DNA of 26,268 bases from a virus: IMG/VR virus record IMGVR_UViG_3300043466_003778, positions 1 through 26,268 of that record, one strand, 5' to 3'. Of this stretch, positions 1,014 to 26,268 are shown in pieces. Numbering within the stretch: position 1 is the stretch's first letter; each line of letters starts with the position of its first letter. A program made the position numbers and the translations under genes. The notes beneath the pieces are model-generated. The model saw only the letters and a list, made by a program, of their open reading frames with translations. It was not told the origin of the DNA and did not search any database.

Positions 1014-1023
1014 CATTTTAGGG

Positions 1024-1058
1024 TATTTATTAAAAATAATCAAGACACTATATTTATA
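1024..1058 (+). promoter_or_regulatory. Probable late promoter region before the gp25-like gene
   Basis: Two versions of the motif that precedes the other unlinked genes lie here: TATTTATT at 1024-1031 and TATTTATA at 1051-1058. The second is only 3 nt from the start codon at 1062, so the first (30 nt away) may be the working one. This is the least regular instance of the motif in the window. Confidence 0.4.
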
Positions 1059-1061
1059 GTT

Positions 1062-1538: not shown

Positions 1539-3377
1539 ATGGCAAATCGTAATATATCTTATACTACAAGAGATTTTCAGGGAATTAGAACTGAGTTATT
1601 AAACTATGTTAGGACTTATTATCCTGAACTGATTCAAGATTTTAATGATGCATCAGTATTCTCAGTATTTTTAGATTTGAATGCTGCGGTTGCTGATAAC
1701 TTACACTACCATATTGATAGAAGTGTTCAAGAAACGGTTCTACAATATGCTCAACAAAGGTCTTCAATTTATAATATTGCAAGAACTTATGGATTGAAAT
1801 TACCGGGACAAAGACCATCAGTGTCTTTAGTTGATTTTTCAATTACCGTACCAGCATTTGGTGATAAAGAAGACGAGAGGTATCTTGGTACACTAACAAG
1901 AGGTTCTCAAGTTGTGGGTGCCGGAATTGTTTTTGAAAATGTTTATGATATTGATTTTGCGTCGCCATACAATGCTCAAGGGTTTCCAAATAGATTAAAA
2001 ATTCCAAACTTTAATGCAAATAATGTTTTAGTTAATTATACTATTACAAAAAGAGAGTTGGTTGTTAATGGTATTACAAAAGTTTTTAAACAAGTAATAA
2101 CACCTAACGATGTTAAACCATTTTTTGAATTATTTTTACCTGAAAAAAATGTTTTAGGTATTACTAGTGTTTTATTAAAAAGTGGGACAGAATATACGAA
2201 TATACCATCAACTGCGGAGTTTTTAAGTCCGGTTAATAAATGGTATGAAGTTGATTCATTGGCGGAAGATAGAATATTCATTGAAGACCCGACCAAAGTG
2301 TCTGACCAACCAGGGATTAAAGTGGGTAAATACATACAAACTCAAAATCGATTTATAAGTGAATATACACCTGAAGGGTTTAAGAAATTAACTTTTGGTG
2401 GTGGAACAAATACAGCCCAAGATGCCTTAGACCAATTTACAACACTTGGTGCTACAATTGATTTACAAAGATATACCAATAACCTTTCATTAGGTTCTGC
2501 ATTAAAACCGAACTCAACATTATTCATACAATATAGAGTTGGTGGTGGTTTAGCAACAAATTTAGGGACTAATGTTATAAATCAAATTGGGACTGTAAAT
2601 TTCTTCGTGAACGGACCATCTGAGTCAACAAATTCATCCGTAGTAAATTCATTAAGATGTAATAATGTAACTGCAGCTATTGGTGGAGCGGGAACACCAT
2701 CATTAGAAGAAATTAGAAATTATGTGTCTTTTAATTTTGCAGCTCAAAAAAGAGCTGTAACCGTTCAAGATTATGAATCAATTATTCGTAACATGCCTTC
2801 TGAATTTGGTGCTCCGGCAAAAGTGTCAATAACTGAAAATAATAATAAGATATTAATTCAATTATTATCTTATGATACATCAGGTAGATTAACTAATATT
2901 GTATCTGACACTTTAAGACAAAATGTTGCAAATTATTTATCGAACTATCGAATGATGAATGATTATATTTCGATATTAACCGCTGAGGTGATTGATTTAA
3001 GTATTGATGTTCAGATTGTGTTAGATTCCGCTCAAAATTCTGGTCAAGTAATTGCTGATGTGGTTGATAGAGTTTCCACTTATTTAAACCCACAAATTAG
3101 GGAGTTAGGACAGAATGTTAATCTTTCAGAATTAAAAAGTATTATACAAAATCAAAATGGTGTATTAAGTGTTGCGGGATTAAATGTGTTTAACAATGTT
3201 GGAGGACAATATTCATCTGCTGAAACATCTATGGTGTATGCAAATCCTGAAACAAAAGAAATTGCTCCTGTTGATGATACAATTTTTGCTCAACCTTCAC
3301 AAGTTTATCAGGTTAGATATCCAAATAAAGATATTAGAGTATCCGTTAAAAATTTCCAATCAGTAACCTTCTCTTAA
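1539..3377 (+). CDS. 6: Baseplate wedge protein, T4 gp6-like (baseplate J-like)
   Basis: A 612 aa protein resembling T4 gp6 (660 aa), the wedge subunit whose dimers join neighbouring wedges into the baseplate ring; its core corresponds to P2 gpJ. Seen: an N-terminal block ISYTTRDFQGIRTELLNYV and a helical block FSVFLDLNAAVADNLHYHID, typical of gp6/J N-termini. A central region carries PSLEEIRNYVSFNFAAQKRA followed by VTVQDYESIIRNMPSEFG, the conserved J-like core. A C-terminal block (about residues 480-560) has alternating strands and ends in NLSELKSIIQNQNGVLSV. It directly follows the gp25-like gene with a 6-nt gap and probably shares its transcript. There is no Shine-Dalgarno sequence; the start context is AAAAACATATG. 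The 93-nt gap after it carries a new promoter motif. Confidence 0.88.
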   Translation: MANRNISYTTRDFQGIRTELLNYVRTYYPELIQDFNDASVFSVFLDLNAAVADNLHYHIDRSVQETVLQYAQQRSSIYNIARTYGLKLPGQRPSVSLVDFSITVPAFGDKEDERYLGTLTRGSQVVGAGIVFENVYDIDFASPYNAQGFPNRLKIPNFNANNVLVNYTITKRELVVNGITKVFKQVITPNDVKPFFELFLPEKNVLGITSVLLKSGTEYTNIPSTAEFLSPVNKWYEVDSLAEDRIFIEDPTKVSDQPGIKVGKYIQTQNRFISEYTPEGFKKLTFGGGTNTAQDALDQFTTLGATIDLQRYTNNLSLGSALKPNSTLFIQYRVGGGLATNLGTNVINQIGTVNFFVNGPSESTNSSVVNSLRCNNVTAAIGGAGTPSLEEIRNYVSFNFAAQKRAVTVQDYESIIRNMPSEFGAPAKVSITENNNKILIQLLSYDTSGRLTNIVSDTLRQNVANYLSNYRMMNDYISILTAEVIDLSIDVQIVLDSAQNSGQVIADVVDRVSTYLNPQIRELGQNVNLSELKSIIQNQNGVLSVAGLNVFNNVGGQYSSAETSMVYANPETKEIAPVDDTIFAQPSQVYQVRYPNKDIRVSVKNFQSVTFS

Positions 3378-11890: not shown

Positions 11891-12799
11891 ATGGCGATTG
11901 CTAGCTACGGTACAGTAAGACCTTCAGATGTTTCACCTGCAGATGTTGAGGTGATATTAAATTACACTCCAAGTAGAGATGTTACAGACCAATTCGTTTT
12001 AACGAAGTTGGACGCTCAAACCATCCTTAGACCTTACTTTGAAAATTCACAAACCGGTGGGAATGCTGGTGTTGAGGTTTTAGGTGGGTTATATAATTTA
12101 ACATTACCGGCAAACCAATTCAACGCACTTGGTTTCTATACATTATATTTGAGACCTGCTCAAATTAGAACTACTATTACGGATTGTGGTGTCTTAAGCG
12201 CATTACCAAATGTAAAAGGTTTAGTTATTGATTTGGCAAATGTTCCTACACAATATCAAAACAAATTTGTTCCTCAAGGTTTAGTTGGTTTTAGAATTGA
12301 ATATTTAAATCCGGATGGTTCAAAAATACCAAATTTCTTTAGAGTAGTTACCTCAAGTTTTTATTGTGAACCTGTGGTTACAAATGAAGTTAATACACAA
12401 CAAAAGTCGATTAGATATAGATATGTCGATGGTAGTTCAAATTTAATATTTTTAACTTTATCACCATCGTCATCTCCAACGAATAAACCAAATGCGACTC
12501 CATTTATTGGACAACCAAGCCAAGATATTATTATTACCAATACATTCTTCAACCCTGTAACGGTTGAAATTGAAATGGTTGAATACGATATTTCATCTCT
12601 TGCAATTGCTCTTTATGGTAATCAAACCAAATCAATTGATGATGGAATTTATACTATCTATGATACTCAAAATAATATCTACAGACAATACAACTTATAC
12701 GAAGTTAGAGACCAATTTAATGCTCTTCTTTATGAGGTTAGACAGAGTCGAGGTAATAATATTGATTTCAGTAAAAACTTTACAAATATAACAACTTAA
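11891..12799 (+). CDS. Uncharacterised virion protein (302 aa)
   Basis: Not recognised. Its N-terminus reads MAIASYGTVRPSDVSPADVE and is followed by a compact region (GVEVLGGLYNLTLPANQF, then GFYTLYLRPAQI) that looks like a beta sandwich. A second region has IRYRYVDGSSNLIFLTLSPS, and the C-terminal 60 residues are more charged and probably helical (LYEVRDQFNALLYEVRQSRG). There is no signal peptide or membrane helix. It opens a new transcription unit behind a TATTTATA motif and is joined by a TAATG overlap to the gpI/gp7-like gene. It may therefore be a wedge-associated partner of that protein, but this is positional inference only. Confidence 0.75.
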   Translation: MAIASYGTVRPSDVSPADVEVILNYTPSRDVTDQFVLTKLDAQTILRPYFENSQTGGNAGVEVLGGLYNLTLPANQFNALGFYTLYLRPAQIRTTITDCGVLSALPNVKGLVIDLANVPTQYQNKFVPQGLVGFRIEYLNPDGSKIPNFFRVVTSSFYCEPVVTNEVNTQQKSIRYRYVDGSSNLIFLTLSPSSSPTNKPNATPFIGQPSQDIIITNTFFNPVTVEIEMVEYDISSLAIALYGNQTKSIDDGIYTIYDTQNNIYRQYNLYEVRDQFNALLYEVRQSRGNNIDFSKNFTNITT

Positions 12800-15786
12800 T
12801 GGCTGTAAATATAAAAACAACAAAATACTTTTATCCTCCAAGACCAGGTAGTGGTGCGGGGACTTTTTCCGACAACATTGTAGGTTTACAAACTGTTGAA
12901 GGGGGAGGGTTAACGCAAGGTAATTTTGAATTTACAACTTCAGTTACTGAAAAAGTTAATAGACGATTTAATGTAGGTGCTTTTTCGGAACCATTAAGTT
13001 TACAATCATTAAACATTGAAGATGTTAATGAAAGTAGAAGAATTTTGGCGACACAATTCAGAGTTTATCCAAACTATGATGTGTCTCAAGTTCTTAACTT
13101 TTCAATGTATGGGTCTTTAAGAAAAAGATTCCAAGTATCTGCAACTAAAATTATTAATTATTTTCCAGCGTCACTTGATATTCAATTTTCTAATTTGGAG
13201 TTTATTACAGGTGCAACTGCGATTAATATAAGTTATGACCCGATTGAGGATGAAACATATTTTGAGGTTAATGTTGATAGAATTAAAAATCCTTTTGATA
13301 TTGATTATTCTGTAAATGCTTCATCAAATTTAAATTTGAGGGAAATTACTACATCTCCTTATAGAAATTTATTTAACACTTATTTGGATTATTGTGTTAG
13401 TATTAATGATGATATTTACAAGATTAACTCATTCCAACCTTCGGAGTCTTTAACTAGTGGGTATATCGCCTTTTATGTTTCAGGTGCTCCATTTGGAACA
13501 ACCGCGACAACTATATTTGAGGAATATCAAATTAGACCAAATGATTTAATTGCTGATAAAATATTTGCGGAAAACTTTGATGAGGTTGAGAAATTTTTAT
13601 TAAATCGATTAATTAAACCTGAATATACTGCGGTATTCCAAGTTCCGGCTCAAACTGAAAATGGGGAGTTTTTTACTAATTTTCAACAAGTTACTTGGCC
13701 AAAAGATGGTGTTTGGAATTTAGATATTAGGTCATTTTTATTTGAAAATTATTTGAGTCAGTTAGATGAAATTGCGGAAAATTTAGATTCGTTTAAAACA
13801 AATTTAATTTCAAGATTTTTAGTTACGGATTCTTTAAAAGAATTTGATACTTTAGGTCAGAAAGTTGAAAAAATATTTCAAATATACGGAAGAAGTTTTG
13901 ACCAAATAAAACAATTTATTGATGCTTTGGCGTATATGAACTCGGTTAATTATAACCCGTCTAATGATATACCATCTCAATTACTTGTTAATTTGGCTCA
14001 AACATTGGGATGGTCATCAAATTTCTCACCAATAACAGATGAGGATTTTTTAGAATCGGTTTTTGGTAATACTTCAACACCAACATATCCGGGTTATGCT
14101 AGAGCTCTAACGCCGACAGAAATTAATTATGCATTTTATCGTAATTTAATTCTAAATGCGTCATACCTATTCAAATCAAAAGGTACTAGAAGGTCGGTTG
14201 AATTTTTAATGAGATTAATCGGTGCTCCGGACTCACTTATTGAATATAATGAACATATTTATTTGGCTGACCAAAAAATTAATTTGGAGCAATTCAACAC
14301 TCAGTGGGCTTCAATTTCAGGAGGAACTTATGTTGATAATACACCGGCATATTTACCGGGACAAACATATAAAATAAAAGGACGAATTTTTTCGGCTTTT
14401 ACATCTATTGCCACTTACGAAGATGTTTCTATTAGATTAAATGAGTATCCCATTGATGTTTTTGGTTATCCAAAAGCGCCGGTAAATACGGAAAGTTATT
14501 TTTTTCAAGTTGGTTCTGGTTGGTATGAATCAACACCTCAACATAGGAGTCCTGATGAAGTGGTTATAACCGGAGATGTTTTTACCGGGCAAAATTTTGA
14601 CATTCAAACCAAATTACAACCATTTACCTATGGACAACCTTACTTAGATAGGTTTAGACAATTCCCTTATATGAACGAAGGGTTTAAATTGAAAAAAGTT
14701 ATTGATAATAAAAAATCTTGGTTAGAGGAAGATAATAAAATAAGAATTTCGACAGATGGTGATTATAATGCTTACTATTATGTTGATGATGAAAGATTAG
14801 TATTAAATGTTAAAAATGTTGATTTATTCTTAAATCCGTCACAAGGTCTTGTTTTCGATGTTTGGAGACAATCAGTAAATTATGATTATCCATTTCCTGA
14901 GTCAGGATTAACAGTTGGTTATCCGGTTCCTGGAGGGGTTGATTGGACATTTATAAATCCTGAACCGAAGAAAAAAACATTTTTTGAATTTTCTCAAACT
15001 TTTTGGGAGAATATGATTAATGTTCGAAATAGACAATATATTAGTGATGGTAAAACTGGTGGATATCCAACATTACAATCAATATGGTGGAAATACATTG
15101 AATCTGAAGCAACAGTTGGATTACCAAATAGTAAATATACATATCAAAAATTAATTGATTATGTGACAGGACTTGGACCTTATTGGATGAAGTTGGTTGA
15201 ACAAATGTTTCCAGCAACAACAATTTGGAATACGGGTATTAAAATGGAAAATTCTGTTTTACATAGACAAAAATTTGTTTATAGAAGACAAAGAGGTTGT
15301 CAATTTATTCCGGTTCCGGTTGACCCTTGTTTTATTATTGATGACATTTTTGATTTTAATTGTGTTACTGAAAGTATTGATTTTAATATTTTTCCGTGGT
15401 TAAATGGTGACCCGGATGTTGGTAATTTTAATAGTATTTTAGCAAATAGGGTTAATAATATGTTAGCTCAAAACGGATTAACTTTAAATGATTGTGTTCA
15501 AAATTCAGTTGAAACAGAATGGTATGTTGATTTAAGAATTGGTGGAGAATTGTTAATTAAAGAGCCTTTTTATGTTGGTTATGGATATACCGATGTTCCA
15601 ACAAATACAATGTGGAGAAATGCCTTAATTCAAAATTTGTCGTTATTATATGATTATGGATTTACATACTTTATAAATGGGAATATTTTAACGATAAGTA
15701 GTTTAACTTGTTCTCAGACAAACATAGATGAATCAGTAACATTAAATGTTGGGATACAAATAAATATAAATTGTAATAGTAACTAA
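12799..15786 (+). CDS. Baseplate wedge protein with P2 gpI / T4 gp7-type core
   Basis: A 995 aa protein. Around residues 320-480 it carries helices and a motif characteristic of tail protein I: LVNLAQTLGWSSNF, then NYAFYRNLILNASYLFKSKG, then TRRSVEFLMRLIGAP. The pattern K-G-T-x5-6-L-x3-G is the P2 gpI signature. In T4 the wedge core is a gp7-(gp6)2 heterotrimer, with gp7 in the gpI position. Because a gp6-like gene lies upstream, this protein is the natural gp7 equivalent. The N-terminus is FYPPRPGSGAGTF-rich. Residues 510-800 form a long insert-like region with many aromatics, and the C-terminus has a Cys-containing block (RGCQFIPVPVDPC, DFNCVTES). TAATG overlaps couple it to genes on both sides. 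The gpI-type motif is visible; the gp7 equivalence is inference. Confidence 0.7.
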   Translation: MAVNIKTTKYFYPPRPGSGAGTFSDNIVGLQTVEGGGLTQGNFEFTTSVTEKVNRRFNVGAFSEPLSLQSLNIEDVNESRRILATQFRVYPNYDVSQVLNFSMYGSLRKRFQVSATKIINYFPASLDIQFSNLEFITGATAINISYDPIEDETYFEVNVDRIKNPFDIDYSVNASSNLNLREITTSPYRNLFNTYLDYCVSINDDIYKINSFQPSESLTSGYIAFYVSGAPFGTTATTIFEEYQIRPNDLIADKIFAENFDEVEKFLLNRLIKPEYTAVFQVPAQTENGEFFTNFQQVTWPKDGVWNLDIRSFLFENYLSQLDEIAENLDSFKTNLISRFLVTDSLKEFDTLGQKVEKIFQIYGRSFDQIKQFIDALAYMNSVNYNPSNDIPSQLLVNLAQTLGWSSNFSPITDEDFLESVFGNTSTPTYPGYARALTPTEINYAFYRNLILNASYLFKSKGTRRSVEFLMRLIGAPDSLIEYNEHIYLADQKINLEQFNTQWASISGGTYVDNTPAYLPGQTYKIKGRIFSAFTSIATYEDVSIRLNEYPIDVFGYPKAPVNTESYFFQVGSGWYESTPQHRSPDEVVITGDVFTGQNFDIQTKLQPFTYGQPYLDRFRQFPYMNEGFKLKKVIDNKKSWLEEDNKIRISTDGDYNAYYYVDDERLVLNVKNVDLFLNPSQGLVFDVWRQSVNYDYPFPESGLTVGYPVPGGVDWTFINPEPKKKTFFEFSQTFWENMINVRNRQYISDGKTGGYPTLQSIWWKYIESEATVGLPNSKYTYQKLIDYVTGLGPYWMKLVEQMFPATTIWNTGIKMENSVLHRQKFVYRRQRGCQFIPVPVDPCFIIDDIFDFNCVTESIDFNIFPWLNGDPDVGNFNSILANRVNNMLAQNGLTLNDCVQNSVETEWYVDLRIGGELLIKEPFYVGYGYTDVPTNTMWRNALIQNLSLLYDYGFTYFINGNILTISSLTCSQTNIDESVTLNVGIQININCNSN

Positions 15787-17918
15787 TGGCGTTTGATTAT
15801 ATTATAAAAGTAACGGGGGATTGTCAAAATAATGGAAGTGGTATAATTGATTTATTTATCACAGGTGGTTCCGAGCCTTATGTGGTACAATGGGTTCAAC
15901 CGGTGTTGTCCACTAATCTTACATCATCATCGGTCATCAAAACAAATTTATTTAGTAATACATATACTGTTCAAGTTACAGATAGTTCACTACCAGTTAA
16001 TCAAGTTGAGTTTATAAACATCCCTGTTTCGAGTGGGGTTTGTTGTAGTATATTAGGTGTTCAAAATACTACTTGTTCTCAAAATAATGGTTCGGTAACA
16101 GGAACTTCAACTTCCCAATACTCGTCAACCAATTATTATTTGTATCACGGTAATGATGTATTTAGTCAATCCGGAATTACAAATCAAGGTACGATAGAGT
16201 TTGGTAGTTTAACTGCCGGAACTTATTATATGACTGTTGAGGATTTAGGAGGGTGTACTGGTAGAAGTCAAAATTTTATTGTTGAGGAATCTGAACCTTT
16301 AAATTATGGTTTATATATGGTTCCGAACTCGTCTTGTGGGGGTACTCCTATTGGAAAATTAAGTGTTACAGGATTGACAGGAGAACCACCATTCACTTAT
16401 TTATGGAATAATGGACAAACAGGTTCGACAATAACGGGGTTAACCTCGGGTCCTTATTTTGTGACCGTAACCGATGGATATGGTTGTCAACTAAGTAAAA
16501 GTGAAACGGTTGTTGATGTTAATTCAATTGGTATTGTGTTATTTACTTCAAATCCTCCGACATGTTTTGCCGCGGATGGGTCAATAACTTTAAACATTAC
16601 CGGAGGAACTGCACCATATTATTATTCCGCTTCGACAGGACAAGTTGATATTTCATATTCTCAAAGTTTTACAATTTCAGGTTTATCTTCAGGGTCTTAT
16701 GAATTTTTAGTTACTGATGCAGGATTTTGTCAAGTATTTGGTCAAACATCAATTGTATCACCTAACGGAGTTGCTTCAGTTACCATTCAAACAAGTAATT
16801 CTACTTGTAGTAGTGATGATGGGGAAATTACCATTTCGGTGATAGGAGGAGTTACACCATATACATATACTTTAATTTACCCTAATGGTAATGTTGAGAA
16901 TGTGTCAGGAACTCAAACGGCTCAAGTATTTTCAAATTTATCAGGTGGGACTTATTCTGTTGGAGTAAGTGATAGTTCGGGTTGTTCATATTTAGATGAA
17001 TTGTTAATTTTAACACAGGATAAATATGTTATATCGGCGACAACAATTGGCACCGCTTGTAATCAATCAAATGGTATAATAAATATAAGTGTTAGTACCG
17101 GAGCTACATTACCACTAAATTATTCGATAGATAATGGGATTTATGATATATTAAATACCAATCTAACTGCGGTTACTTTTAATAATATTGCGGCTGGAAC
17201 ACATACAGTTACTGTTACTGATGCTACAGGATGTGAACAATCATCAAATGTTCTTATCACCGGAAGTGTTCCATTAGATTTTTCGTTATATAGTTCATCA
17301 TGTGGTGTTGGAAATAATGGTAAATTAAGTGCGTTTATAAATTCAGGTGTTCCTCCTTTCAATTTTTATTGGTCGAGTAATGTTCCAAATAACCCTCAAC
17401 AAATTCAAGTATCAGGACTTACAGGAGGAACTTATAGTTTAACAATTGTTGACAGTAATGGTTGTTCGTTAACTAGAAACGCAACAATAAGTTGTTTTGG
17501 TAATATTAGTTCGTATCAAACTTATGTGATGGGTTCAGAAATATTTAACATTACTTCACCTACCAAATTTGGTTTATTACAAATGTTAAATGAAGGGTTT
17601 TACGATTTAAGTCTTGGTAATGAGAGATGTGATTTAGTGAGTGCAACTTTTTCCGTTAGAGTGTCTGTAAATCCACTTAATTTGACAACTAGCCAAACAT
17701 TTTTCACAACAACATCATTAAATGTTGTTCCAACCGACAATCAATATTATGACACGGTGAGAAATTTATTATTAACAATTCCTGGTGTTGGCGGGGTTAC
17801 AATAAATCCTTTAACTAATCAAATAACTATTGAAACTACAAGGGGTGATGATACATTGAATGGTCAAGAAATTGTGGTTGATTTGGTTATTGATTATGAT
17901 ATTATGTGTTTAAGTTAA
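15786..17918 (+). CDS. SprB-repeat-like adhesin/fibre protein (710 aa, seven repeats)
   Basis: A 710 aa extracellular-type protein built from about seven Ig-like repeats of 75-85 residues. Approximate spans are 3-82, 88-172, 173-247, 249-328, 330-413, 414-495 and 496-570. The repeats resemble the SprB repeat of gliding flavobacteria, with the pattern GGxxPYxYxW...ITGLxxGxYxVTVTDxxGC. The clearest unit contains TGEPPFTYLWNNGQTGSTI then GPYFVTVTDGYGC. Most repeats carry one Cys near the start and one in the closing GC, so an intradomain disulfide is plausible. The last 140 residues form a different domain (FGLLQMLNEGFYDLSLGNER). It lacks a signal peptide and the type IX secretion C-terminal domain of real SprB, consistent with a virion protein. 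It lies between the wedge core gene (TAATG overlap) and the small paralogue at 17920. Receptor binding is inferred. Confidence 0.8.
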   Translation: MAFDYIIKVTGDCQNNGSGIIDLFITGGSEPYVVQWVQPVLSTNLTSSSVIKTNLFSNTYTVQVTDSSLPVNQVEFINIPVSSGVCCSILGVQNTTCSQNNGSVTGTSTSQYSSTNYYLYHGNDVFSQSGITNQGTIEFGSLTAGTYYMTVEDLGGCTGRSQNFIVEESEPLNYGLYMVPNSSCGGTPIGKLSVTGLTGEPPFTYLWNNGQTGSTITGLTSGPYFVTVTDGYGCQLSKSETVVDVNSIGIVLFTSNPPTCFAADGSITLNITGGTAPYYYSASTGQVDISYSQSFTISGLSSGSYEFLVTDAGFCQVFGQTSIVSPNGVASVTIQTSNSTCSSDDGEITISVIGGVTPYTYTLIYPNGNVENVSGTQTAQVFSNLSGGTYSVGVSDSSGCSYLDELLILTQDKYVISATTIGTACNQSNGIINISVSTGATLPLNYSIDNGIYDILNTNLTAVTFNNIAAGTHTVTVTDATGCEQSSNVLITGSVPLDFSLYSSSCGVGNNGKLSAFINSGVPPFNFYWSSNVPNNPQQIQVSGLTGGTYSLTIVDSNGCSLTRNATISCFGNISSYQTYVMGSEIFNITSPTKFGLLQMLNEGFYDLSLGNERCDLVSATFSVRVSVNPLNLTTSQTFFTTTSLNVVPTDNQYYDTVRNLLLTIPGVGGVTINPLTNQITIETTRGDDTLNGQEIVVDLVIDYDIMCLS

Positions 17919-17919
17919 T

Positions 17920-18237
17920 ATGACTCAAATAGAAATACAAGGAATTTCGGGGGGAACATTACCAATAAATTTATATGCTTGTGATGTTTATCAAAACCAA
18001 TGTGTATTAGTTGGAACTATAAATACAACAGTTCCTCCGAACATTATTATTACATTACCACAACAATTTGATAATGTTCCTGCCTTTGGTGTTTTATTGG
18101 TTGACGGGAATGGATGTGAAAGATTTGAAGTTGCTGTTTGTACTATTGGTGGGTATGTTAAAATTTTCCAAAATACTGATGACGATTATGTTTTCCAATT
18201 TATGGACTTTGTTATTTATCAATTTGAGGGACCATAA
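17920..18237 (+). CDS. Small single-repeat virion protein with FMDF tail (105 aa), paired with fibre 1
   Basis: A 105 aa protein starting 1 nt after the stop of the SprB-like gene. Residues 1-75 read like one SprB-type Ig unit: IEIQGISGGTLPINLYACD, with a closing LLVDGNGCERFEVAVC and three cysteines. The last 20 residues form an acidic-aromatic tail with DDYVFQFMDFVIYQFEGP. The same arrangement, including the tail motif F-x-F-M-D-F-x-I-x-x-F, recurs in the protein at 23327. Both genes lie immediately upstream of a giant fibre gene. No catalytic motif or membrane segment is seen. A fibre adaptor or assembly-partner role is inferred from the paired organisation. It also marks the end of the 11891-18237 unit, since a promoter motif follows. 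Confidence 0.78.
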   Translation: MTQIEIQGISGGTLPINLYACDVYQNQCVLVGTINTTVPPNIIITLPQQFDNVPAFGVLLVDGNGCERFEVAVCTIGGYVKIFQNTDDDYVFQFMDFVIYQFEGP

Positions 18238-18256
18238 TAAAATTAAATAATTTTTA

Positions 18257-18271
18257 AAGTATTTATAAATA
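18257..18271 (+). promoter_or_regulatory. Late-promoter-like motif before fibre 1
   Basis: AAGTATTTATAAATA lies in a 44-nt gap. TATTTATA occupies 18260-18267, 14 nt before the ATG at 18282. The start is preceded by an A-rich leader (AAAAAATAAAA) and no Shine-Dalgarno sequence. Confidence 0.6.
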
Positions 18272-18281
18272 AAAAATAAAA

Positions 18282-21200
18282 ATGCCAATATATCAAAGAC
18301 TTACTGACCGACAATTTCCACCAAGTGGAGTTACATTAGATGATTTAATTCATATTGTAATAACAGGTGATACATCTCAAAGTCCTGAGGGCTCTTCATT
18401 TAAAGTTACTTTGAGTGAGGTTGCTCAAATAATATCGGGAGGTAGTGGTAATACAATTTTTACTGCTGATACTGGAACATGTTCAACTTTAAGAATTGGT
18501 TCCGGATGTGTGTTGGGTAATTATTCGGCAGTATTAGGTGGTCAATTTAATACAGGAACAACTGCTCATTCATCAATCGTTGGTGGATGTCAAAATGTTA
18601 TAAGTGGAGGAACCCATTCATTTATTGGTGGTGGTTATTGTAATACCGCATCAGGATATAGTTCATCTGTTGTAGGTGGTCGTTATAATACCGCATCAGA
18701 TTATTTTTCATCTGTTGTAGGTGGTTGTTATAATACCGCATCAGGAGCTACTTCGTTTGTTGGTGGTGGTCAATCTAATACCGCATCAGGATTTACTTCG
18801 TTTGTTGGTGGTGGTCGTTGTAATACCGCATCGTGTAATTATTCATCTGTTGTAGGTGGTCTTAGTAATACCGCATCAGGAGTTACTTCGTTTGTTGGTG
18901 GTGGTCGTCAAAATATCGCATCATCTGCCTATTCAACAATTGGTGGTGGTATTTATAATACCGCATCATATAGTTTTTCAACAATAGGTGGTGGTGGTTG
19001 TAATAACGCATCAGGAAATTACGCAACAATTGGTGGTGGTAATGGTAATAACGCAGGACTTTGTTCAACAATTGGTGGTGGTGCTTTTAATACCGCATCA
19101 GGGTATAAATCAACAATAGGCGGTGGTCAATTTAATTATGCATCATCTACTTATTCAACAATTGCTGGTGGTTGTCGTAACACCGCATCAGGAAGTAATT
19201 CATTTATTGGTAGTGGTCAATACAATAACGCATTATGTTGTTTTTCAACAATTGGTGGTGGTTTTTGTAATATCACATCAGGGTATAATTCATTTGTTGG
19301 TGGTGGTGTTTGTAATACCGCATCAGGACTTAGTTCATTTGTTGGTGGTGGTCAATCTAATACCGCATCAGGTTATTTTTCATCTGTTGTAGGTGGTCAA
19401 TCTAATACCGCATCGTGTAATTATTCATCTGTTGTAGCTGGTGTTCAAAATATCGCATCATGTGATTTTTCATCTGTTGTAGGTGGTCGTTATAATACCG
19501 CATCATGTTATTTTTCATTTATTGTAGGTGGTTTTTGTAATACCGCATCAGCACGATATTCATCTGTTGTAGGTGGTTGTTGTAATACCGCATCAGGAAA
19601 TTATTCATCTGTTGTAGGTGGTTATTGTAATACTGCATCGTGTAATTATTCATTTGTTGGTGGTGGTCAATTTAATACCGCATCATCTGCCTATTCAACA
19701 ATTGGTGGGGGTAAAGTCAATTTTAACAAATCTGAATCAGGTTTTATTGGTGGTGGAACTTTAAACTCAACTACTTGTACGACAATTTTTAATGGTTATG
19801 GAAGTGCTTATTCTCAATGTTTTTGTTTAAGTGGCGACCAATCAGCAAATTTTACAATAGGAGATTGTTTTGTAGGTGCAAATTCACAAACAAATCAAAT
19901 TTATAAAGGTCAAATATGTAGTGTGACTTATGGAAGTGGTTATACGCTAATACAAACTGGTATTTATTTTGGTTCTTGCAATAGTCAAACTATAATTAAT
20001 ACATCTACTGCAACAAATGCTTGTAATTTTGCAACAATAGTTGGTGGTTTTGGTAATATCGCATCAGGTTGTAATTCATTTATTGGTGGTGGTGGTTTTA
20101 ATACCGCATCAGGAAGTAATTCATTTATTGGTAGTGGTCAATACAATAACGCATCAGGTGCTATTTCATCTGTTGTAGGTGGTTATTGTAATACCGCATC
20201 AGCAAATTATTCATCTGTTGGTGGTGGTCGTTGTAATATCGCATCAGGATGTTGTTCATTTGTTGTAGGTGGTCGTAATAATACCGCATCAAATTATTTT
20301 TCATCTGTTGTAGGTGGTTGTTGTAATACCTCATCATATTATGCTTCATTTGTTGGTGCTGGTCTATGTAATACCGCATCAGGTGCTATTTCATCTGTTG
20401 TAGGTGGTTGTTGTAATACCGCATCGTGTAATTATTCATCTGTTGTAGCTGGTTTTCAAAATATCGCATCAGGAGATAGTTCATTTATTGGTGGTGGGGT
20501 TTGTAATACCGCATCAGCAAATAGTTCATTTGTTGGTGGTGGTCGATATAATACCGCATCAGGAGATAGTTCATTTATTGGTGGTGGGTTTTGTAATACC
20601 GCATTATGTTGTTTTTCAACAATTAGTGGTGGTAATTGTAATACCGCATCAGATGATAATTCAACAATTGGTGGTGGTCGTTATAATACCGCATCAGGTA
20701 CTTTTTCAACAATTGGTGGTGGTCTTTGTAATACCGCATCAGGAAGTCGCTCATTTGTTGGTGGTGGTCGTTGTAATATCGCATCAGGTTGTAATTCATT
20801 TGTTGGTGGTGGTTTTTATAATACTGCATCAGGAGAACGCTCATCTGTTGTAGGTGGTCTTAATAATACCGCATCAGGTTGTTTTTCATCTGTTGTGGGT
20901 GGTCGTTATAATACCGCATCAAATAATTATTCATCTGTTGTAGGTGGTTTTTCTAATACCGCATCATGTTTTTTTTCAATAATTATCGGAGGTTGTTATA
21001 ATACCGCATCAGGACAAGTAGCATCTGTTGTAAATGGTGTTTGTAATACTGCGTCAGGGGGTTATTCATTTATTGGAAATGGTTATGTTAATACCTCATC
21101 AGGATTTGCTTCAGCAATTGGTGGTGGTCGTGGAAATACCACATCAGGATATTATTCAACAATAGGCGGTGGTGTTTGTAATACCGCATCAGGTTGTAAT

Positions 21201-23270
21201 TCATTCGTTGGAGGTGGTTGTTGTAATACCGCATCAGGAATTATGTCATCAATTTTAGGTGGTTTTTTCAATACCGCATCGTATAATTATTCATCTGTTG
21301 TAGGTGGTCGTTATAATACCGCATCAGGAGGTAATTCATTTGTTGGTGGTGGTCGTCAAAATACCGCATCAGGACAATATTCATCTGTTGTTAATGGTTT
21401 TTGTAATGTTGCTTCAGGAAATCAATCATTTATTGGTAATGGTTATCGTAATACTGCATCAGGAGATACTTCATCTGTTGTAGGTGGTGCTTTTAATACC
21501 GCATCAGGTTGTAATTCATTTGTTGGTGGTGGTCGTTGTAATACCGCATCAGGAGTTACTTCATTTGTTGGTAATGGTCGTCAAAATATCGCATCATCTA
21601 CCTATTCAACAATTGGGGGTGGTATTTATAATACCGCATCAGGAGTTAATTCTTTTATTGGTGGTGGGTTTTGTAATACCACATCAGGAAATAGTTCATT
21701 TGTTGGTGGTGGTCGATATAATACCGCATCAAATTATTATTCAACTATTGGTGGTGGTGTTTATAATACCGCATCAGCTTGTTATTCATCTGTTGTAGGT
21801 GGTCGTTATAATACCGCATCATATAATTATTCATCTGTTGTAAATGGTCTTTGTAATACCGCATCAGGAAGTCGCTCATTTGTTGGTGGTGGTCAATCTA
21901 ATACCGCATCAGGAAGTGCTTCATTTGTTGGTGGTGGTGCTTTTAATACCGCATCATGTAATTATTCATCTGTTGTAGGTGGTCTTTGTAATACCGCATC
22001 AGGTAGTGCTTCATCTGTTGTAGGTGGTTGTTATAATGGTGTGTCAGGTACAACTTCATTCATTGGTGGAGGTGTGTGTAATTGTATTTTTGCGGGAGGT
22101 AAAAACGCAACAAGTGGTGCTGTAATAGGTGGTGGTTATTGTAATGTTATTTGTGCTATCTCAGGGTTAGCAACAATTGGTGGGGGTTCAGGTAATATTG
22201 CCGAAGGAAATTGGTCAACTATCGGGGGGGGTTGGAATAACACGGCAACATCATTTAGAGCGTCAACAATTGCCGGAGGTGTAGGTAATTGTGCTACAGG
22301 TAATTATTCGTTTGTTGGTGGTGGTCGTGGTAATATATCTTATGGAACTACTTCATCTGTTGTAGGTGGTTGTTGTAATAACGCATCAGGGTATTTTTCA
22401 ACAATTGGTGGTGGTTGTAAAAACACCTCTTCCGGATATTTTTCATTTGTAGGTGGAGGTACAGGAAACACTTCAAGTAATTGTTTTTCATTTGTGGGTG
22501 GTGGATATTGTAACACCGCATCAGGATGTACTTCATTTATTGGTGGTGGTAGTCGTAATTTATCTTCAGGTTGTTTGTCAACTGTTGGAGGTGGGGTTTG
22601 TAATGTTGCATCAGGAACTACATCATTTATTGGTGGAGGATTTTGTAATATCGCTAGTGGGCCTCAATCAACAATTAGTGGAGGTCGTAAGAATACCTCA
22701 TCCGGTTGTTGTTCATTTGTTGGAGGTGGTAGTTATAATACATCATCATTTTATTGGTCAACAGTTGGTGGTGGTATTTGTAATACTTCATCAGGTGACA
22801 AATCATTTATTGGTGGTGGTCGTAATAATACCGCATCATGTTATGTAACAACAATAGGTGGTGGTTTATATAATTCAGCGATTGGTTGTGCATCAACAAT
22901 TGGTGGTGGTAAATTTAATTACGCGTCCGATTGTTACTCAACTATAGGTGGTGGAGATTCTAATTTTTCTATTTGTTCTTGGTCAACAATCGGAGGTGGT
23001 TATTGTAATTATTCATCAGCACCTAATTCAACAATTGGTGGGGGTCTGTGTAATACCGCATCAGGTTTAAGGTCATCAATTTTAGGTGGTCAATGCAACA
23101 CAACAAACACTTGTGCCGACGCGATGATTGTAGGGTCTTGTATTACAGCAGACAGAGTGTGTACCACATTTGTAAACAATTTATCGATTATGAATATACC
23201 TACAAGTGGTGTAGGATTGCCTGTTGGTTCAGTTTATAGGGTTGGTAATGCGTTATGTATTGTAATTTAG
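18282..23270 (+). CDS. Giant coil-repeat tail fibre 1 (1662 aa), YadA-head-like
   Basis: A 1662 aa fibre. Residues 1-55 are an N-terminal anchor (PPSGVTLDDLIHIVITGD, then SPEGSSFK), homologous to the start of the protein at 23913. Residues 79-121 form an entry cap (YSAVLGGQFNTGTTAHSSIV). Some 90-100 units of about 15 residues follow, with consensus [ST]-[SF]-[VI]-[VG]-G-G-x-x-N-T-A-S-[GC]-x-x. These resemble Hep_Hag/YadA-head coils, which form trimeric left-handed beta-rolls. A non-repeat insert of about 110 residues interrupts them at 475-586. The exit cap is CNTTNTCADAMIVGSCITAD. The C-terminus IPTSGVGLPVGSVYRVGN, then ALCIVI, is of a type common at phage fibre ends. It is unusually rich in Cys. 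Nearly identical DNA across units indicates expansion by recombination. Trimeric fibre identity and receptor binding are inferred from repeat type and position. Confidence 0.85.
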   Translation: MPIYQRLTDRQFPPSGVTLDDLIHIVITGDTSQSPEGSSFKVTLSEVAQIISGGSGNTIFTADTGTCSTLRIGSGCVLGNYSAVLGGQFNTGTTAHSSIVGGCQNVISGGTHSFIGGGYCNTASGYSSSVVGGRYNTASDYFSSVVGGCYNTASGATSFVGGGQSNTASGFTSFVGGGRCNTASCNYSSVVGGLSNTASGVTSFVGGGRQNIASSAYSTIGGGIYNTASYSFSTIGGGGCNNASGNYATIGGGNGNNAGLCSTIGGGAFNTASGYKSTIGGGQFNYASSTYSTIAGGCRNTASGSNSFIGSGQYNNALCCFSTIGGGFCNITSGYNSFVGGGVCNTASGLSSFVGGGQSNTASGYFSSVVGGQSNTASCNYSSVVAGVQNIASCDFSSVVGGRYNTASCYFSFIVGGFCNTASARYSSVVGGCCNTASGNYSSVVGGYCNTASCNYSFVGGGQFNTASSAYSTIGGGKVNFNKSESGFIGGGTLNSTTCTTIFNGYGSAYSQCFCLSGDQSANFTIGDCFVGANSQTNQIYKGQICSVTYGSGYTLIQTGIYFGSCNSQTIINTSTATNACNFATIVGGFGNIASGCNSFIGGGGFNTASGSNSFIGSGQYNNASGAISSVVGGYCNTASANYSSVGGGRCNIASGCCSFVVGGRNNTASNYFSSVVGGCCNTSSYYASFVGAGLCNTASGAISSVVGGCCNTASCNYSSVVAGFQNIASGDSSFIGGGVCNTASANSSFVGGGRYNTASGDSSFIGGGFCNTALCCFSTISGGNCNTASDDNSTIGGGRYNTASGTFSTIGGGLCNTASGSRSFVGGGRCNIASGCNSFVGGGFYNTASGERSSVVGGLNNTASGCFSSVVGGRYNTASNNYSSVVGGFSNTASCFFSIIIGGCYNTASGQVASVVNGVCNTASGGYSFIGNGYVNTSSGFASAIGGGRGNTTSGYYSTIGGGVCNTASGCNSFVGGGCCNTASGIMSSILGGFFNTASYNYSSVVGGRYNTASGGNSFVGGGRQNTASGQYSSVVNGFCNVASGNQSFIGNGYRNTASGDTSSVVGGAFNTASGCNSFVGGGRCNTASGVTSFVGNGRQNIASSTYSTIGGGIYNTASGVNSFIGGGFCNTTSGNSSFVGGGRYNTASNYYSTIGGGVYNTASACYSSVVGGRYNTASYNYSSVVNGLCNTASGSRSFVGGGQSNTASGSASFVGGGAFNTASCNYSSVVGGLCNTASGSASSVVGGCYNGVSGTTSFIGGGVCNCIFAGGKNATSGAVIGGGYCNVICAISGLATIGGGSGNIAEGNWSTIGGGWNNTATSFRASTIAGGVGNCATGNYSFVGGGRGNISYGTTSSVVGGCCNNASGYFSTIGGGCKNTSSGYFSFVGGGTGNTSSNCFSFVGGGYCNTASGCTSFIGGGSRNLSSGCLSTVGGGVCNVASGTTSFIGGGFCNIASGPQSTISGGRKNTSSGCCSFVGGGSYNTSSFYWSTVGGGICNTSSGDKSFIGGGRNNTASCYVTTIGGGLYNSAIGCASTIGGGKFNYASDCYSTIGGGDSNFSICSWSTIGGGYCNYSSAPNSTIGGGLCNTASGLRSSILGGQCNTTNTCADAMIVGSCITADRVCTTFVNNLSIMNIPTSGVGLPVGSVYRVGNALCIVI
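18516..19705 (+). repeat. Coil-repeat array 1A in fibre 1 (about 45-bp period)
   Basis: In-frame tandem units of mostly 45 bp (some 42 or 48) encode GGGxxNTASGxxSSV-type coils. The block AATACCGCATCA is nearly invariant even at synonymous positions. Variation is concentrated in the two codons before AAT and the two or three codons after TCA. The first 130 nt are repeated at 26031-26160 in fibre 2. Confidence 0.9.
19706..20033 (+). other. Non-repeat insert domain within the fibre 1 array
   Basis: This stretch of about 110 codons (residues about 475-586) lacks the coil consensus. It encodes segments such as NGYGSAYSQCFCLSGD, GDCFVGANSQTNQIYKGQ and YGSGYTLIQTGIYFGS. The frame stays open across it, and regular coils resume with FATIVGGFGN. 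It may be a protruding globular domain; no family recognised. Confidence 0.7.
20034..22047 (+). repeat. Coil-repeat array 1B, highly homogeneous core
   Basis: About 45 consecutive units share near-identical DNA. Long duplications are visible: 20103-20154 is an exact 52-nt copy of 19182-19233, and 21544-21640 matches 18871-18967 with about five differences. These show that blocks of several units were duplicated or exchanged. Confidence 0.88.
22048..23072 (+). repeat. Coil-repeat array 1C, diverged units
   Basis: The same coil pattern continues with irregular unit lengths and divergent codons. Examples are GGGVCNCIFAGGKNATSG, GGGYCNVICAISGLATIG and GGGWNNTATSFRASTIAG, and the near-invariant AATACCGCATCA block is mostly lost. 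These units look older or escape homogenisation. Confidence 0.8.
23073..23185 (+). repeat. Exit-cap repeat, copy 1 (pair at 25761-25873)
   Basis: A 113-nt block encoding SSILGGQCNTTNTCADAM and the following residues recurs in fibre 2 at 25761-25873 with about 100 of 113 bases identical. In both genes it terminates the coil array, so it is read as a C-terminal cap of the beta-roll. Confidence 0.85.
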
Positions 23271-23301
23271 CTATTTTTAATGATTGATATTATATGTTTT
23301 A

Positions 23302-23318
23302 GTGTATTTATAATATAA
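23302..23318 (+). promoter_or_regulatory. Late-promoter-like motif before the 184 aa gene
   Basis: GTGTATTTATAATATAA lies in the 56-nt gap after fibre 1. TATTTATA occupies 23305-23312, 14 nt before the ATG at 23327. No terminator hairpin is visible in this gap. Confidence 0.55.
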
Positions 23319-23326
23319 TTAAACAT

Positions 23327-23881
23327 ATGATATTAATTGAAGTTACATCGATAAACGGAGTTGCTCCATACAATATTTCAATTTGTGATTTAAGTAAAAC
23401 CAATTGTTATATTGTTGCGACAGGGACTCCAACATTACCTCTTTATTTGGGATTACCACCACAATTAAGTAGTGCCAATCAGGTATTGTTGGTTGTTACT
23501 GATTCACAAAATTGTGAATATTTTAAAGTTATTTCTTGTATTCCTCCGTCGCCAACACCAACTCCTACTCCTACTCCGACACCAACTCCAACACCTGGTA
23601 ATTGTTTATGTTTAACATTTGTTAATAATACCTTATCAGATTTAACTATTGGTTATACTCGTTGTGATGGACTTATAACCTCAGAAACGATTTACTCTAA
23701 CACTATTCTGTATTATTGTGGTAGTAATCCGACTGCCGAACCAGGAGTTATTATAAATGTGGGTAATCCTTGTGTTAATAATAGTTGTCCAACACCAACT
23801 CCAACACCTTTAACATATAAACAATTTCAAGATTATGAATATTTTGAATTTATGGACTTTGAAATATTCGATTTCCAATAA
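23327..23881 (+). CDS. Small virion protein with Pro-Thr linkers and FMDF tail (184 aa), paired with fibre 2
   Basis: A 184 aa paralogue of the protein at 17920. Residues 1-72 form the same single SprB-like unit (IEVTSINGVAPYNISICD, with closing VTDSQNCEYFKVISC). A (PT)n linker at residues 76-90 leads to a second small Cys-rich domain (GNCLCLTFVNNTLSDLTI, then VGNPCVNNSC). A second, shorter PT linker follows, then an acidic-aromatic tail DYEYFEFMDFEIFDFQ that matches the tail of the 105 aa protein. It therefore looks like the 105 aa protein with an extra domain inserted between Ig unit and tail. It lies 31 nt upstream of fibre 2 and has its own promoter motif. Role inferred as a fibre-partner or adaptor; no enzyme motif is seen. 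Confidence 0.8.
   Translation: MILIEVTSINGVAPYNISICDLSKTNCYIVATGTPTLPLYLGLPPQLSSANQVLLVVTDSQNCEYFKVISCIPPSPTPTPTPTPTPTPTPGNCLCLTFVNNTLSDLTIGYTRCDGLITSETIYSNTILYYCGSNPTAEPGVIINVGNPCVNNSCPTPTPTPLTYKQFQDYEYFEFMDFEIFDFQ
23552..23596 (+). repeat. Pro-Thr hexanucleotide repeat (linker)
   Basis: Fifteen alternating Pro/Thr codons (CCN-ACN) encode an extended linker in the 184 aa protein. A shorter copy of seven codons lies at 23789-23809. Codons vary (CCA/CCT/CCG, ACA/ACT), so selection on the protein, not simple slippage, maintains it. Confidence 0.9.
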
Positions 23882-23883
23882 CA

Positions 23884-23900
23884 AACTATTTATGATATAA
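23884..23900 (+). promoter_or_regulatory. Late-promoter-like motif before fibre 2
   Basis: AACTATTTATGATATAA lies in the 31-nt gap. TATTTATG occupies 23887-23894, 18 nt before the ATG at 23913. It is followed by the A-rich leader AACAAAAAAACA. The last base of the core differs from the other copies. Confidence 0.5.
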
Positions 23901-23912
23901 AACAAAAAAACA

Positions 23913-26268
23913 ATGATATTAACTGAAAGAACATATTCACCATCAGGGTTTACAACAAGTCAAACATTAATTCACATTGTTGATACTAATAACCCGACTC
24001 AAAATCCTGCAGGTTCATCTTATAAATCAACTATTGATGGGGCCATCAGTGGGTCACCATTTGTTGTTATAGTTAGTGGGACAGGAGTTAATTCTTCAAT
24101 AAGAAGAGATGTTGATAATCTTGCGTCAGGAAATAATTCCGGTGCTTTAGGAGGGTATTCAAATTCAGCAACAACAAATTATTCAATGGTTGTTGGTGGT
24201 TGTCAAAACATTATTAGTGGAGGAACTCATTCCTTTATTGGTGGTGGTTTTTGTAATACCTCATTAGGGAATTATTCATCTGTTGTAGGTGGTCGTTGTA
24301 ATGCCGCATCAGGGTGTACTTCATTTATTGGTGGTGGTTATTATAACACCACATTAAATGACTATTCGACAATAGGTGGTGGTTTGGGTAATGCTGCATC
24401 AGGAAATCGTTCATTTATTGGAGGCGGTTGTAAAAATACTGCATCAGGGAATAAATCATTTATTGGTGGAGGTATTATAAATACTGCATCGGGAGATACT
24501 TCCACAGTTGTTGGTGGTTGTTGTAATGTATCATCAGGTGTGTGTTCATTTATTGGTGGTGGAACTAATAATCTTGTTTCAGGAAGTACCTCATTTATTG
24601 GTGGTGGTGTTAACAATACTGCATCAGGATGTATTTCATTTATTGGTGGTGGTAAAGATAATACTTCATCTTGTGAGGGTTCATTTATTGGAGGTGGTCA
24701 AGGTAATGTGACATCAGGAAGTTATTCATTTGTTGGTGGTGGTAATTCTAATACCGCATCATCTAATTTTTCATCTGTTGTAGGTGGTCAATGTAATACC
24801 GCTTCAGGATATAATTCATTTATTGGAGGTGGTCGTTGTAATACCGCATCGTATAATTATTCATCTGTTGTAGGTGGTGGATATAATACCGCGTCAGAAC
24901 GTTTTTCATTTATTGGTAATGGTTATTGTAATGTCGCATCAGGAGATAGTTCATTTATTGGTGGTGGTCGTTATAATACCGCATCGTGTAATTATTCATC
25001 TGTTGTAGGTGGTAATTGTAATACCGCATCGTGTAATTATTCATCTGTTGTAGGTGGTCGTTATAATACCGCATCAGGAGATAGTTCATTTGTTGGTGGT
25101 GGTCGTTGTAATACCGCATCAGGAGATAGTTCATTTATTGGTGGTGGTCGTTATAATACCGCATCAGGTTCTTGTTCATTCGTTGGAGGTGGTCGTCAAA
25201 ATACCGCATCGTGTAATTATTCATCTGTTGTAGGTGGTTATTGTAATACCGCATCAGGTTGTAGGTCATTTGTTGGTGGTGGTCTTTATAATACCTCATC
25301 AGGACAAATTTCCTTTGTTGGTGGTGGTGTTTATAATACCGCATCATGTGATTTTTCATCTGTTGTAGGTGGTTATTGTAATACTGCATCAGGGATTTAT
25401 TCATTTGTTGGTGGTGGTTTTTATAATACTGCATCATGTCTCGGTTCATTTGTTGGTGGAGGTAGTACTAATATTGCATCAGGGTATACTTCAACAATAT
25501 CTGGTGGTTTTTTAAATATTGCATCAGGAGACAATTCATTTATTGGTGGTGGTCGTTGTAATACCGCATCATGTAATTTTTCATCTGTTGTAGGTGGTCG
25601 TGGTAATACCGCTTCAGGAATTTGTTCATTTGTTGGTGGTGGTTGTTATAATACCGCATCGAATAATTTTTCATCTGTTGTAAATGGTTTTTGTAATACC
25701 GCATCAGGTTGTTATTCATCGATTGTTAATGGTCGTTGTAATACCGCATCAGGTTGTCGCTCATCTATTTTAGGTGGTCAATGTAACACAACAAACTCTT
25801 GTGCCGACGCGATGATTGTAGGTTCTTGTATTACTGCTAATAGAGCGTGTACCACATTTGTTAATGATTTATCTGTTTGTAGTTTTAGTGGTTTTAGTGG
25901 ATGTAGTGTTGGAATATCAACAAACGGTCTTTTAATCCCAACATCAGGTGGTGGTGGAGGAAGTAGTATATTTGTTGTGGGTGCCGGAACTTGTTCATCA
26001 GTTAGAGAAAATGTTTCAAATGTTGCTTCAGGTAATTATTCGGCTGTATTAGGTGGTCAATTTAATACAGGAACAACTGCTCATTCATCAATCGTTGGTG
26101 GATGTCAAAATGTTATAAGTGGAGGAACTCATTCATTTATTGGTGGGGGTTATTGTAATAACGCAAGTGGTTCATACGGCTCGTTTATTGGAGCGGGAGT
26201 ATTAAACACCGCAAGTGGAAATGCGTCAAGTGTTGTTGGAGGTCAACAAAATACTGCTAGCGGTATTA
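23913..26268 (+). CDS. Giant coil-repeat tail fibre 2, 3'-truncated by window end (785+ aa)
   Basis: The frame is open from ATG 23913 to the last base, so the gene continues beyond the window. The N-terminus (YSPSGFTTSQTLIHIVDTNN, then PAGSSYK) is homologous to the fibre 1 anchor. A diverged entry cap (NYSMVVGGCQNIISGGTHSF) leads into about 35-38 coils of the same type as fibre 1, and many share identical DNA with it. The exit cap (CADAMIVGSCITANRACTTF) is followed by a Gly-rich linker (PTSGGGGGSSI). A second module then begins: YSAVLGGQFNTGTTAHSSIV, with its DNA almost identical to fibre 1's entry cap, followed by new coils to the window end. Fibre 2 thus has at least two tandem beta-roll modules. 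It is preceded by the 184 aa FMDF-tail protein, mirroring the arrangement at fibre 1. Fibre identity is firm by repeat type; the receptor role is inferred. Confidence 0.82.
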   Translation, partial: MILTERTYSPSGFTTSQTLIHIVDTNNPTQNPAGSSYKSTIDGAISGSPFVVIVSGTGVNSSIRRDVDNLASGNNSGALGGYSNSATTNYSMVVGGCQNIISGGTHSFIGGGFCNTSLGNYSSVVGGRCNAASGCTSFIGGGYYNTTLNDYSTIGGGLGNAASGNRSFIGGGCKNTASGNKSFIGGGIINTASGDTSTVVGGCCNVSSGVCSFIGGGTNNLVSGSTSFIGGGVNNTASGCISFIGGGKDNTSSCEGSFIGGGQGNVTSGSYSFVGGGNSNTASSNFSSVVGGQCNTASGYNSFIGGGRCNTASYNYSSVVGGGYNTASERFSFIGNGYCNVASGDSSFIGGGRYNTASCNYSSVVGGNCNTASCNYSSVVGGRYNTASGDSSFVGGGRCNTASGDSSFIGGGRYNTASGSCSFVGGGRQNTASCNYSSVVGGYCNTASGCRSFVGGGLYNTSSGQISFVGGGVYNTASCDFSSVVGGYCNTASGIYSFVGGGFYNTASCLGSFVGGGSTNIASGYTSTISGGFLNIASGDNSFIGGGRCNTASCNFSSVVGGRGNTASGICSFVGGGCYNTASNNFSSVVNGFCNTASGCYSSIVNGRCNTASGCRSSILGGQCNTTNSCADAMIVGSCITANRACTTFVNDLSVCSFSGFSGCSVGISTNGLLIPTSGGGGGSSIFVVGAGTCSSVRENVSNVASGNYSAVLGGQFNTGTTAHSSIVGGCQNVISGGTHSFIGGGYCNNASGSYGSFIGAGVLNTASGNASSVVGGQQNTASGI
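24110..25760 (+). repeat. Coil-repeat array 2 in fibre 2
   Basis: About 35-38 in-frame units of mostly 45 bp use the same AATACCGCATCA core as array 1. Units such as the one encoding TASCNYSSVVGG occur in several identical copies here and in fibre 1. Units near 24110-24720 are more diverged than those from 24720 onward. Confidence 0.9.
25761..25873 (+). repeat. Exit-cap repeat, copy 2 (pair at 23073-23185)
   Basis: This 113-nt block ends the first coil array of fibre 2 and matches the fibre 1 exit cap, with CADAMIVGSCITA conserved in both. Here it is followed by a linker and a new module, whereas in fibre 1 it is followed by the protein's C-terminus. Confidence 0.85.
26031..26160 (+). repeat. 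Entry-cap repeat, copy 2 (pair at 18516-18645)
   Basis: A 130-nt block is identical to 18516-18645 except at about three positions, in the same reading frame, 7515 nt away. It is much more alike than the entry cap of fibre 2's own first module (about 24175-24250). This points to recent exchange or duplication between fibre genes. Confidence 0.88.

Follow-up and report, generated by a model that had tools for sequence, protein, structure and literature searches.

A period-8 C-terminal tail as a probable docking peptide for phage fibres

Introduction

How a fibre can be exchanged while the baseplate is kept working is a central question of phage host-range evolution. The question is raised here by a linear virus record of 26,268 base pairs (IMG/VR IMGVR_UViG_3300043466_003778; this whole stretch of DNA is the window), in which two small proteins are each encoded directly upstream of a giant fibre; its relatives form a group of large uncultured phages. 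In both gene pairs the conserved unit consists of the last 20-25 residues of the small protein, termed the class I or FMDF tail, and the first ~40 residues of the fibre, termed the anchor. The FMDF tail is probably a short, portable fibre-docking peptide that is held by the anchor of the fibre trimer and fixes the fibre to the baseplate. A matched tail-anchor pair of this kind would explain fibre exchange mechanically and, if the reading is true, would make the fibres of uncultured phages assignable to their attachment protein from sequence alone.

Two small-protein/fibre pairs of one plan

The genes of the two pairs start at 17920/18282 and 23327/23913, positions at which a preliminary description of this DNA had placed two pairs of one plan and at which the open reading frames (ORFs) were found:

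17920..18237, plus strand: small adaptor protein 1 (105 residues), in which residues 1-74 make up the N-terminal body, a predicted beta-sandwich, ahead of the class I tail
18160..18234, plus strand: putative class I docking tail of adaptor 1, KIFQNTDDDYVFQFMDFVIYQFEGP, from the tail profile and period-8 analysis
18282..23270, plus strand: fibre 1 (1662 residues), an anchor followed by a beta-roll repeat shaft (PF21300, 10 stretches)
18282..18425, plus strand: class I anchor of fibre 1 (LTDR...DLIHIVITGDTSQSPEGSSFK), from anchor alignments, with a conserved region of ~40 residues
23327..23881, plus strand: small adaptor protein 2 (184 residues), with body, Pro-Thr linker, extra domain and class I tail; relatives in L014 and G025
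23819..23878, plus strand: putative class I docking tail of adaptor 2, KQFQDYEYFEFMDFEIFDFQ, from DNA alignment
23913..26268, plus strand: fibre 2 (at least 785 residues, running off the contig end), an anchor followed by beta-roll modules (PF21300, 7 stretches)
23913..24050, plus strand: class I anchor of fibre 2 (LTERTYSPSGFTTSQTLIHIVDTNNPTQNPAGSSYK), from anchor alignments

The two adaptors align in two places, residues 1-74 (31% identity, E=2e-9) and the tail (38%, E=0.004), and the N-termini of the two fibres are 39% identical (E=3e-11). The similarity between the small proteins and the anchor common to the fibres, both proposed in the preliminary description, are thereby confirmed, and so is the additional domain that a Pro-Thr linker joins to the second small protein, at residues ~72-163. 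The description knew of no named family for the small proteins, and this too stands, as neither protein matched any Pfam family at E<=1 or any PHROG better than E=0.69. Its term "SprB-like" fits their appearance (a beta-sandwich with Asp-x-x-Gly-Cys) and the fold predicted by AlphaFold2 for the body of the L009 orthologue (predicted local distance difference test, pLDDT, 80-92), but not the Pfam SprB model PF13573, to which the small proteins gave no match at E<=1. A Foldseek comparison of the small-protein model with the PDB returned nothing significant (best E=0.05). The fibres had been called coil-repeat proteins; their repeats are beta-rolls rather than coiled coils, and PF21300 (LbR_Ice_bind) matches the two shafts at E=1e-16 and 6e-20 (60.8 and 71.6 bits against a curated cutoff of 30).

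The tail follows the pattern F-Q-D-x3-F-x-F-M-D-x3-Y-x-F-Q with a period of 8. Its consensus, [FY]-[QEM]-[DN]-x3-[FY]-x, F-M-D-x3-Y-x, F-[QE], amounts to two full octads and a partial third. Across 45 distinct tails, similarity at lag 8 is 0.586 as against 0.184 in shuffled sequences, and lag 4 is depleted. With a tail profile, real ORFs mostly reach 20-50 bits and shuffled ones no more than 6.7 bits, which bears out the acidic-aromatic tail that the two small proteins had been said to share. The class I anchor carries the motif LTDR...DLIHIVITGDTSQ.P.GSSYK. No paper describing such tails was found among the open-access full texts searched.

Association of tail and anchor among relatives

Relatives were taken as viral contigs found by searches with each small protein, with the anchor (228 stretches returned, 80 kept) and with the body alone. 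The small-protein searches returned proteins with an FMDF tail followed directly by an LTDR-anchor fibre, and tail-less homologues followed by other genes. The query of the body-only search contained neither tail nor fibre, and bodies cut by a contig end were excluded; among the 34 distinct uncut bodies, 23 have both the tail and an anchor fibre directly downstream, 11 have neither, and none is discordant (Fisher 3.5e-9, a value that is indicative only because the sequences are related). Viewed from the fibre, a tail-bearing ORF lies next upstream of 77 of the 88 distinct class I anchors; tail gene and fibre gene are co-directional, and the gaps measure 11-51 nucleotides in nearly all cases. 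Of the 17 records with tail-less bodies, only G038 has an anchor and a tail, the tail lying directly upstream of the anchor; the other 16 have neither.

Fibres of one anchor clade (HVVVTGDTSQSPQGSSYYAPLS) often have no tail protein adjacent to them. A tail-bearing small protein is present elsewhere in 8 of 11 such records, and these non-adjacent proteins are often followed by a glycosyltransferase-like gene. Such genes (MKIFVQIASYRDPQLI..., MDDLIFVTAQPDVPYFHWQ...) recur in the fibre-gene slot after the adaptor in L012, L022, L114, L118 and L120. Two other arrangements were observed. L144 (3001-3593) contains a decayed cassette in which an altered tail (...SFIFMDANIYTVETQ) stands beside a fibre reduced to 78 residues, so that tail and fibre seem to degenerate together. 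In L056 (3401-3973) one class I fibre is preceded by two small adaptors in succession, whose C-terminal tails differ (FFILTETGLIITTESGDRLVWI and class I).

Phages that have only the fibre tip in common with these loci (Acinetobacter phiAC-1, Limnohabitans DC31 and DC33, Flavobacterium elemoA and environmental podoviruses) have other anchors and no period-8 C-terminus upstream; the tail therefore follows the anchor, not the tip. A tblastn search of 50,697 phage records with the small proteins and the anchor gave zero matches; at such sensitivity, that collection does not contain the group. An anchor search of GTDB genomes yielded none that was confirmed.

Carriers and shafts

Neither the protein that carries the tail nor the shaft that follows the anchor is constant. 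The usual carrier of the class I tail is a unit of ~100 residues, and the same N-terminal body is found in longer carriers (285 residues in L257, 1174 in G025, and adaptor 2 of the window). Adaptor 1 of the window carries the tail, and the two large proteins encoded before it are without one:

12799..15786, plus strand: 995-residue baseplate-region protein, tail-less in the window, with homologues that bear the tail C-terminally (L094) or internally (L088, L104)
15786..17918, plus strand: 710-residue SprB-repeat protein (PF13573, five SprB stretches), tail-less in the window

In L094 the tail ends a 900-residue homologue of the 995-residue protein (31%, E=6e-120), and in L088 and L104 it lies inside homologues of 1317 and 1307 residues, directly before the fibre. 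In G038 it ends a 744-residue homologue of the 710-residue protein (37.5%, E=7e-136), directly before an anchor fibre. The preliminary description had proposed a dedicated adaptor-fibre pair. The pairing and its adjacency hold up (23 of 23 tail-bearers in the body-only search), but a dedicated small protein is not supported as the constant element, which is the tail: it also occurs on the 744-residue, 900-residue and two ~1300-residue baseplate-region proteins, and none of the 11 tail-less homologues has an anchor fibre next to it.

Past the anchor, identity among class I fibres drops from about 0.5-0.85 to about 0.2, and the shafts vary. Among 90 distinct class I fibres, 37 shafts are collagen-like, 19 are beta-rolls and 34 are other or short. 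The coil-repeat fibre is thus not the constant partner that had been expected. In L009-L011, for example, tail and anchor are retained but the shaft resembles collagen (PF01391 matches the L010 fibre at E=7e-185). The window shafts match the repeat family of LbR_Ice_bind and YadA-like beta-rolls, but the shaft is not the conserved part here.

A second tail and anchor class

Several bodies that lack the FMDF tail (L168, L190, L160 and L210) end in other period-8 tails, and two of them precede fibres with another anchor (LPIS.LPEL...SGTTYK). When this class II anchor was used as the query, the preceding protein ended in a YLLQEDGFYLLQEDGSKIIIT-type tail (LLQEDGF type) on very different carriers, which include 84-93-residue proteins unlike the small body and are often unrelated to one another. 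In a class table built with profiles for both tails and both anchors, 77 distinct pairs are I-I, 22 are II-II and none is crossed; 11 class I anchors and 1 class II anchor are without an adjacent tail. Strong period 8 is present in 59 of 721 distinct C-termini, of which 48 are class I, 9 class II and 2 others.

Further period-8 C-terminal tails are found at L168:3001-3309 and L190:3001-4956 (LLLQDNTCFLLQDNTLFLLQGC and LLLETGDYLLLETGDKIIL, respectively), with no fibre gene directly downstream. The tails of L168 and L190 are possible further docking classes, and tails of the LLLETGD and LLQDN types hint at more than two classes.

Cassette history

The two pairs were initially thought to have duplicated and diverged into two fibre types. 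The two cassettes are indeed homologous, and positions 18516-18650 and 26031-26165, in the shafts of the two window fibres, are 97% identical in DNA, a stretch that suggests recent recombination between them. The DNA of the second pair is mosaic, however. Compared with L023, window positions 23327-24330 show chance-level identity to about 23817 and ~90% identity from 23819 to about 24240. Position 23819 is the first codon of KQFQDYEYFEFMDFEIFDFQ, and the ~90% stretch runs through the tail, the gap between the genes and the anchor into the first part of the shaft. The body of adaptor 2 is only 29-33% identical in protein to L023-type bodies, whereas the DNA of its tail and of anchor 2 is shared at ~90% with other phages, so that the second cassette looks like a module acquired by recombination. 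Cassette 1 is nearest to L009-L011 (79%). Simple tandem duplication was rejected on the mosaic profile, and the looser proposal of duplication within the genome followed by divergence is unlikely. Given the different nearest relatives and the 97% shaft stretch, the alignments indicate that the two cassettes of the window differ in their recent history and also exchange shaft DNA. It is plausible that a single virion bears two fibre types.

A proposed docking mechanism

In the proposed mechanism, the last protein of the baseplate region ahead of the fibre gene would display the tail at its end or, rarely, internally, and the ~40-residue N-terminal anchor of the fibre trimer would grip this tail, fixing the fibre to the baseplate. 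The window would offer two such plugs, each adaptor serving the fibre encoded after it. Two full octads and a partial third, set against a trimeric fibre, would accommodate one tail per three anchors: three strand-like tail segments lying against three fibre chains would resolve the symmetry problem. The sequences themselves show that tail and anchor go together whatever the carrier or shaft, that their classes match, that the tail has a period of 8 and that the DNA junction lies where the tail begins. We infer physical binding, this 1:3 stoichiometry and a role of the tail-anchor pair as the unit exchanged in fibre swaps.

Several observations weigh against this mechanism. In two AlphaFold2 runs on monomeric read-through chains (small protein, natural linker and anchor; tail, linker and anchor), the tail was disordered (pLDDT about 40-50) and made no ordered contact with the anchor; the body was modelled at pLDDT 80-92 and the anchor at about 60-80, as a hairpin and helix. 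The chains being monomers, these runs were counted neither as support nor as refutation. Three class I fibres (L037, L039, L281) are preceded by tail-less units, although the L281 record has a tail elsewhere, ending a 1174-residue protein about 11 kilobases from the fibre. Class II was defined from few seed tails, and the class table is less independent than the body-only test. Within class I, co-variation of tail and anchor is weak (partial r=0.154, p=0.035, with body divergence removed), which fits a single interface conserved throughout each class, not a multitude of private interfaces. The related loci all come from metagenomes, and the system is known here as DNA sequence.

A broader proposal is that period-8 tails form a general plug-and-socket code of phages, in which class-matched anchors take a three-chain grip, the pair is mobile between unrelated phages and carriers, and fibres are exchanged without remaking the baseplate. 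This is a real possibility, though one that falls somewhat short of probable.

Alternative explanations

Helper proteins for phage fibres are known, and the small tail-bearing protein could be a non-structural chaperone or trimerisation helper whose tail is a client-binding site. The close, co-directional placement of the small gene before the fibre gene, with gaps of 11-51 nucleotides, would suit such a helper. The same tail, however, stands at the end of or inside baseplate-region proteins of 900, ~1300 and 744 residues; carriers of this kind are unlikely to be chaperones, and the explanation is improbable.

It is more improbable still that the tail is a signal for assembly or targeting in general, such as entry into the baseplate, and makes no contact with the fibre. 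Such a signal would account for a tail on the particle-side protein rather than on the fibre, and agrees with the absence of a predicted interface. The signal leaves unexplained that tail-less body homologues at the same operon position are without exactly the class I fibre, and that the class of the tail follows that of the anchor. The identity junction lying exactly at the tail start invites another explanation, in which the tail acts mainly in the DNA as a homologous-recombination handle for fibre-gene swaps and the peptide merely hitchhikes. Against this, period 8 is kept at the protein level in 45 distinct tails, the tail is in frame on several carriers and even internally, tail and anchor co-occur in one record even when non-adjacent, and the two classes never cross; the handle is very unlikely to be the main function. 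Docking of the fibre anchor to the tail is the preferred reading.

Comparison with known attachment systems

The closest likeness is to the Pseudomonas phage Pa193 (Pbunavirus), in which three fibre N-termini hold one aromatic loop of the wedge protein gp46 at 3:1 (PMC11042391). If binding occurs as proposed, both systems would have one aromatic-rich segment of a baseplate protein held 3:1 by hydrophobic residues close to the N-terminus of the fibre trimer. The Pa193 loop (W84, F86, F93, F112) is internal and fixed and has no octad repeat, whereas the period-8 peptide described here is modular, occurs on several carriers, for the most part a dedicated small protein, and comes in at least two matched classes. 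An internal position is seen here only in L088 and L104, in homologues of the 995-residue protein, whose family matches nothing in Pfam or PHROG and is at most a candidate wedge protein; elsewhere the tail is C-terminal. The corresponding loop of the Pa193 homologue E217 (NSSWAFGRLRQNFIYSG...) has no octad repeat and no similarity to the tail by eye.

Exchangeable receptor-binding proteins are also attached by the adapter and short peptides of K1-5, K1E and SP6 and by the T4gp10-like branching modules of G7C and Klebsiella phages (PMC6872550). Short peptides and N-terminal anchors are a common feature, and connectors differ between phage groups (PMC6872550). In those phages the receptor-binding protein bears the short peptide and the adapter has the domain; in the present group the particle side bears the peptide and the fibre has the anchor. 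The adaptors gave no Pfam or PHROG match to the T4gp10-like families. Where those receptor-binding proteins have a short conserved peptide at the N-terminus, the present fibres have an anchor of ~40 residues, and the peptide belongs to the protein encoded upstream. In its mode of action the tail-anchor pair would resemble the peptide-mediated attachment of fibres already known; judged by the features compared, it falls outside those families.

Locus layout and further observations

The end of a ribonucleotide reductase gene (PF02867) is present in the window. Two wedge genes are recognisable:

1005..1532, plus strand: gp25-like baseplate wedge protein (PF04965, E=4e-11; PHROG 261, E=7e-17)
1539..3377, plus strand: gp6/Baseplate_J-like baseplate wedge protein (PF04865, E=2e-6; PHROG 219, E=2e-23)

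The gp25-like gene places the locus in a contractile-tail baseplate module. The wedge genes are followed by large family-less proteins, the 710-residue SprB-repeat protein and the two small-protein/fibre pairs. For the 995-residue protein, sequence searches of Pfam, PHROG, NCBIfam and the PDB gave no family; its C-terminal part may resemble P2 gpI or wedge proteins. The 1589-residue baseplate-region protein at 3471-8240 contains a long hydrophobic, membrane-like stretch (FFLFSILLTILSPAFIGILIAMHIILFLYNIVISALCGLCGI), which is unusual in a virion protein. The host is inferred to be a freshwater Bacteroidota, on the basis of a tip that the related fibre of L210 has in common with a Flavobacterium phage.

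A TATTTAT element occurs in the window at 3448-3456, 11866-11874, 18259-18267, 23304-23312 and 23887-23893, and also at 1050-1058. In all six window intergenic gaps of at least 31 nucleotides it lies 4-19 nucleotides ahead of the following start codon. Among the relatives it is present in 74 of 84 distinct 45-nucleotide stretches upstream of anchor fibres, as against 2.3% of random 45-nucleotide windows, and is possibly a phage late promoter element.

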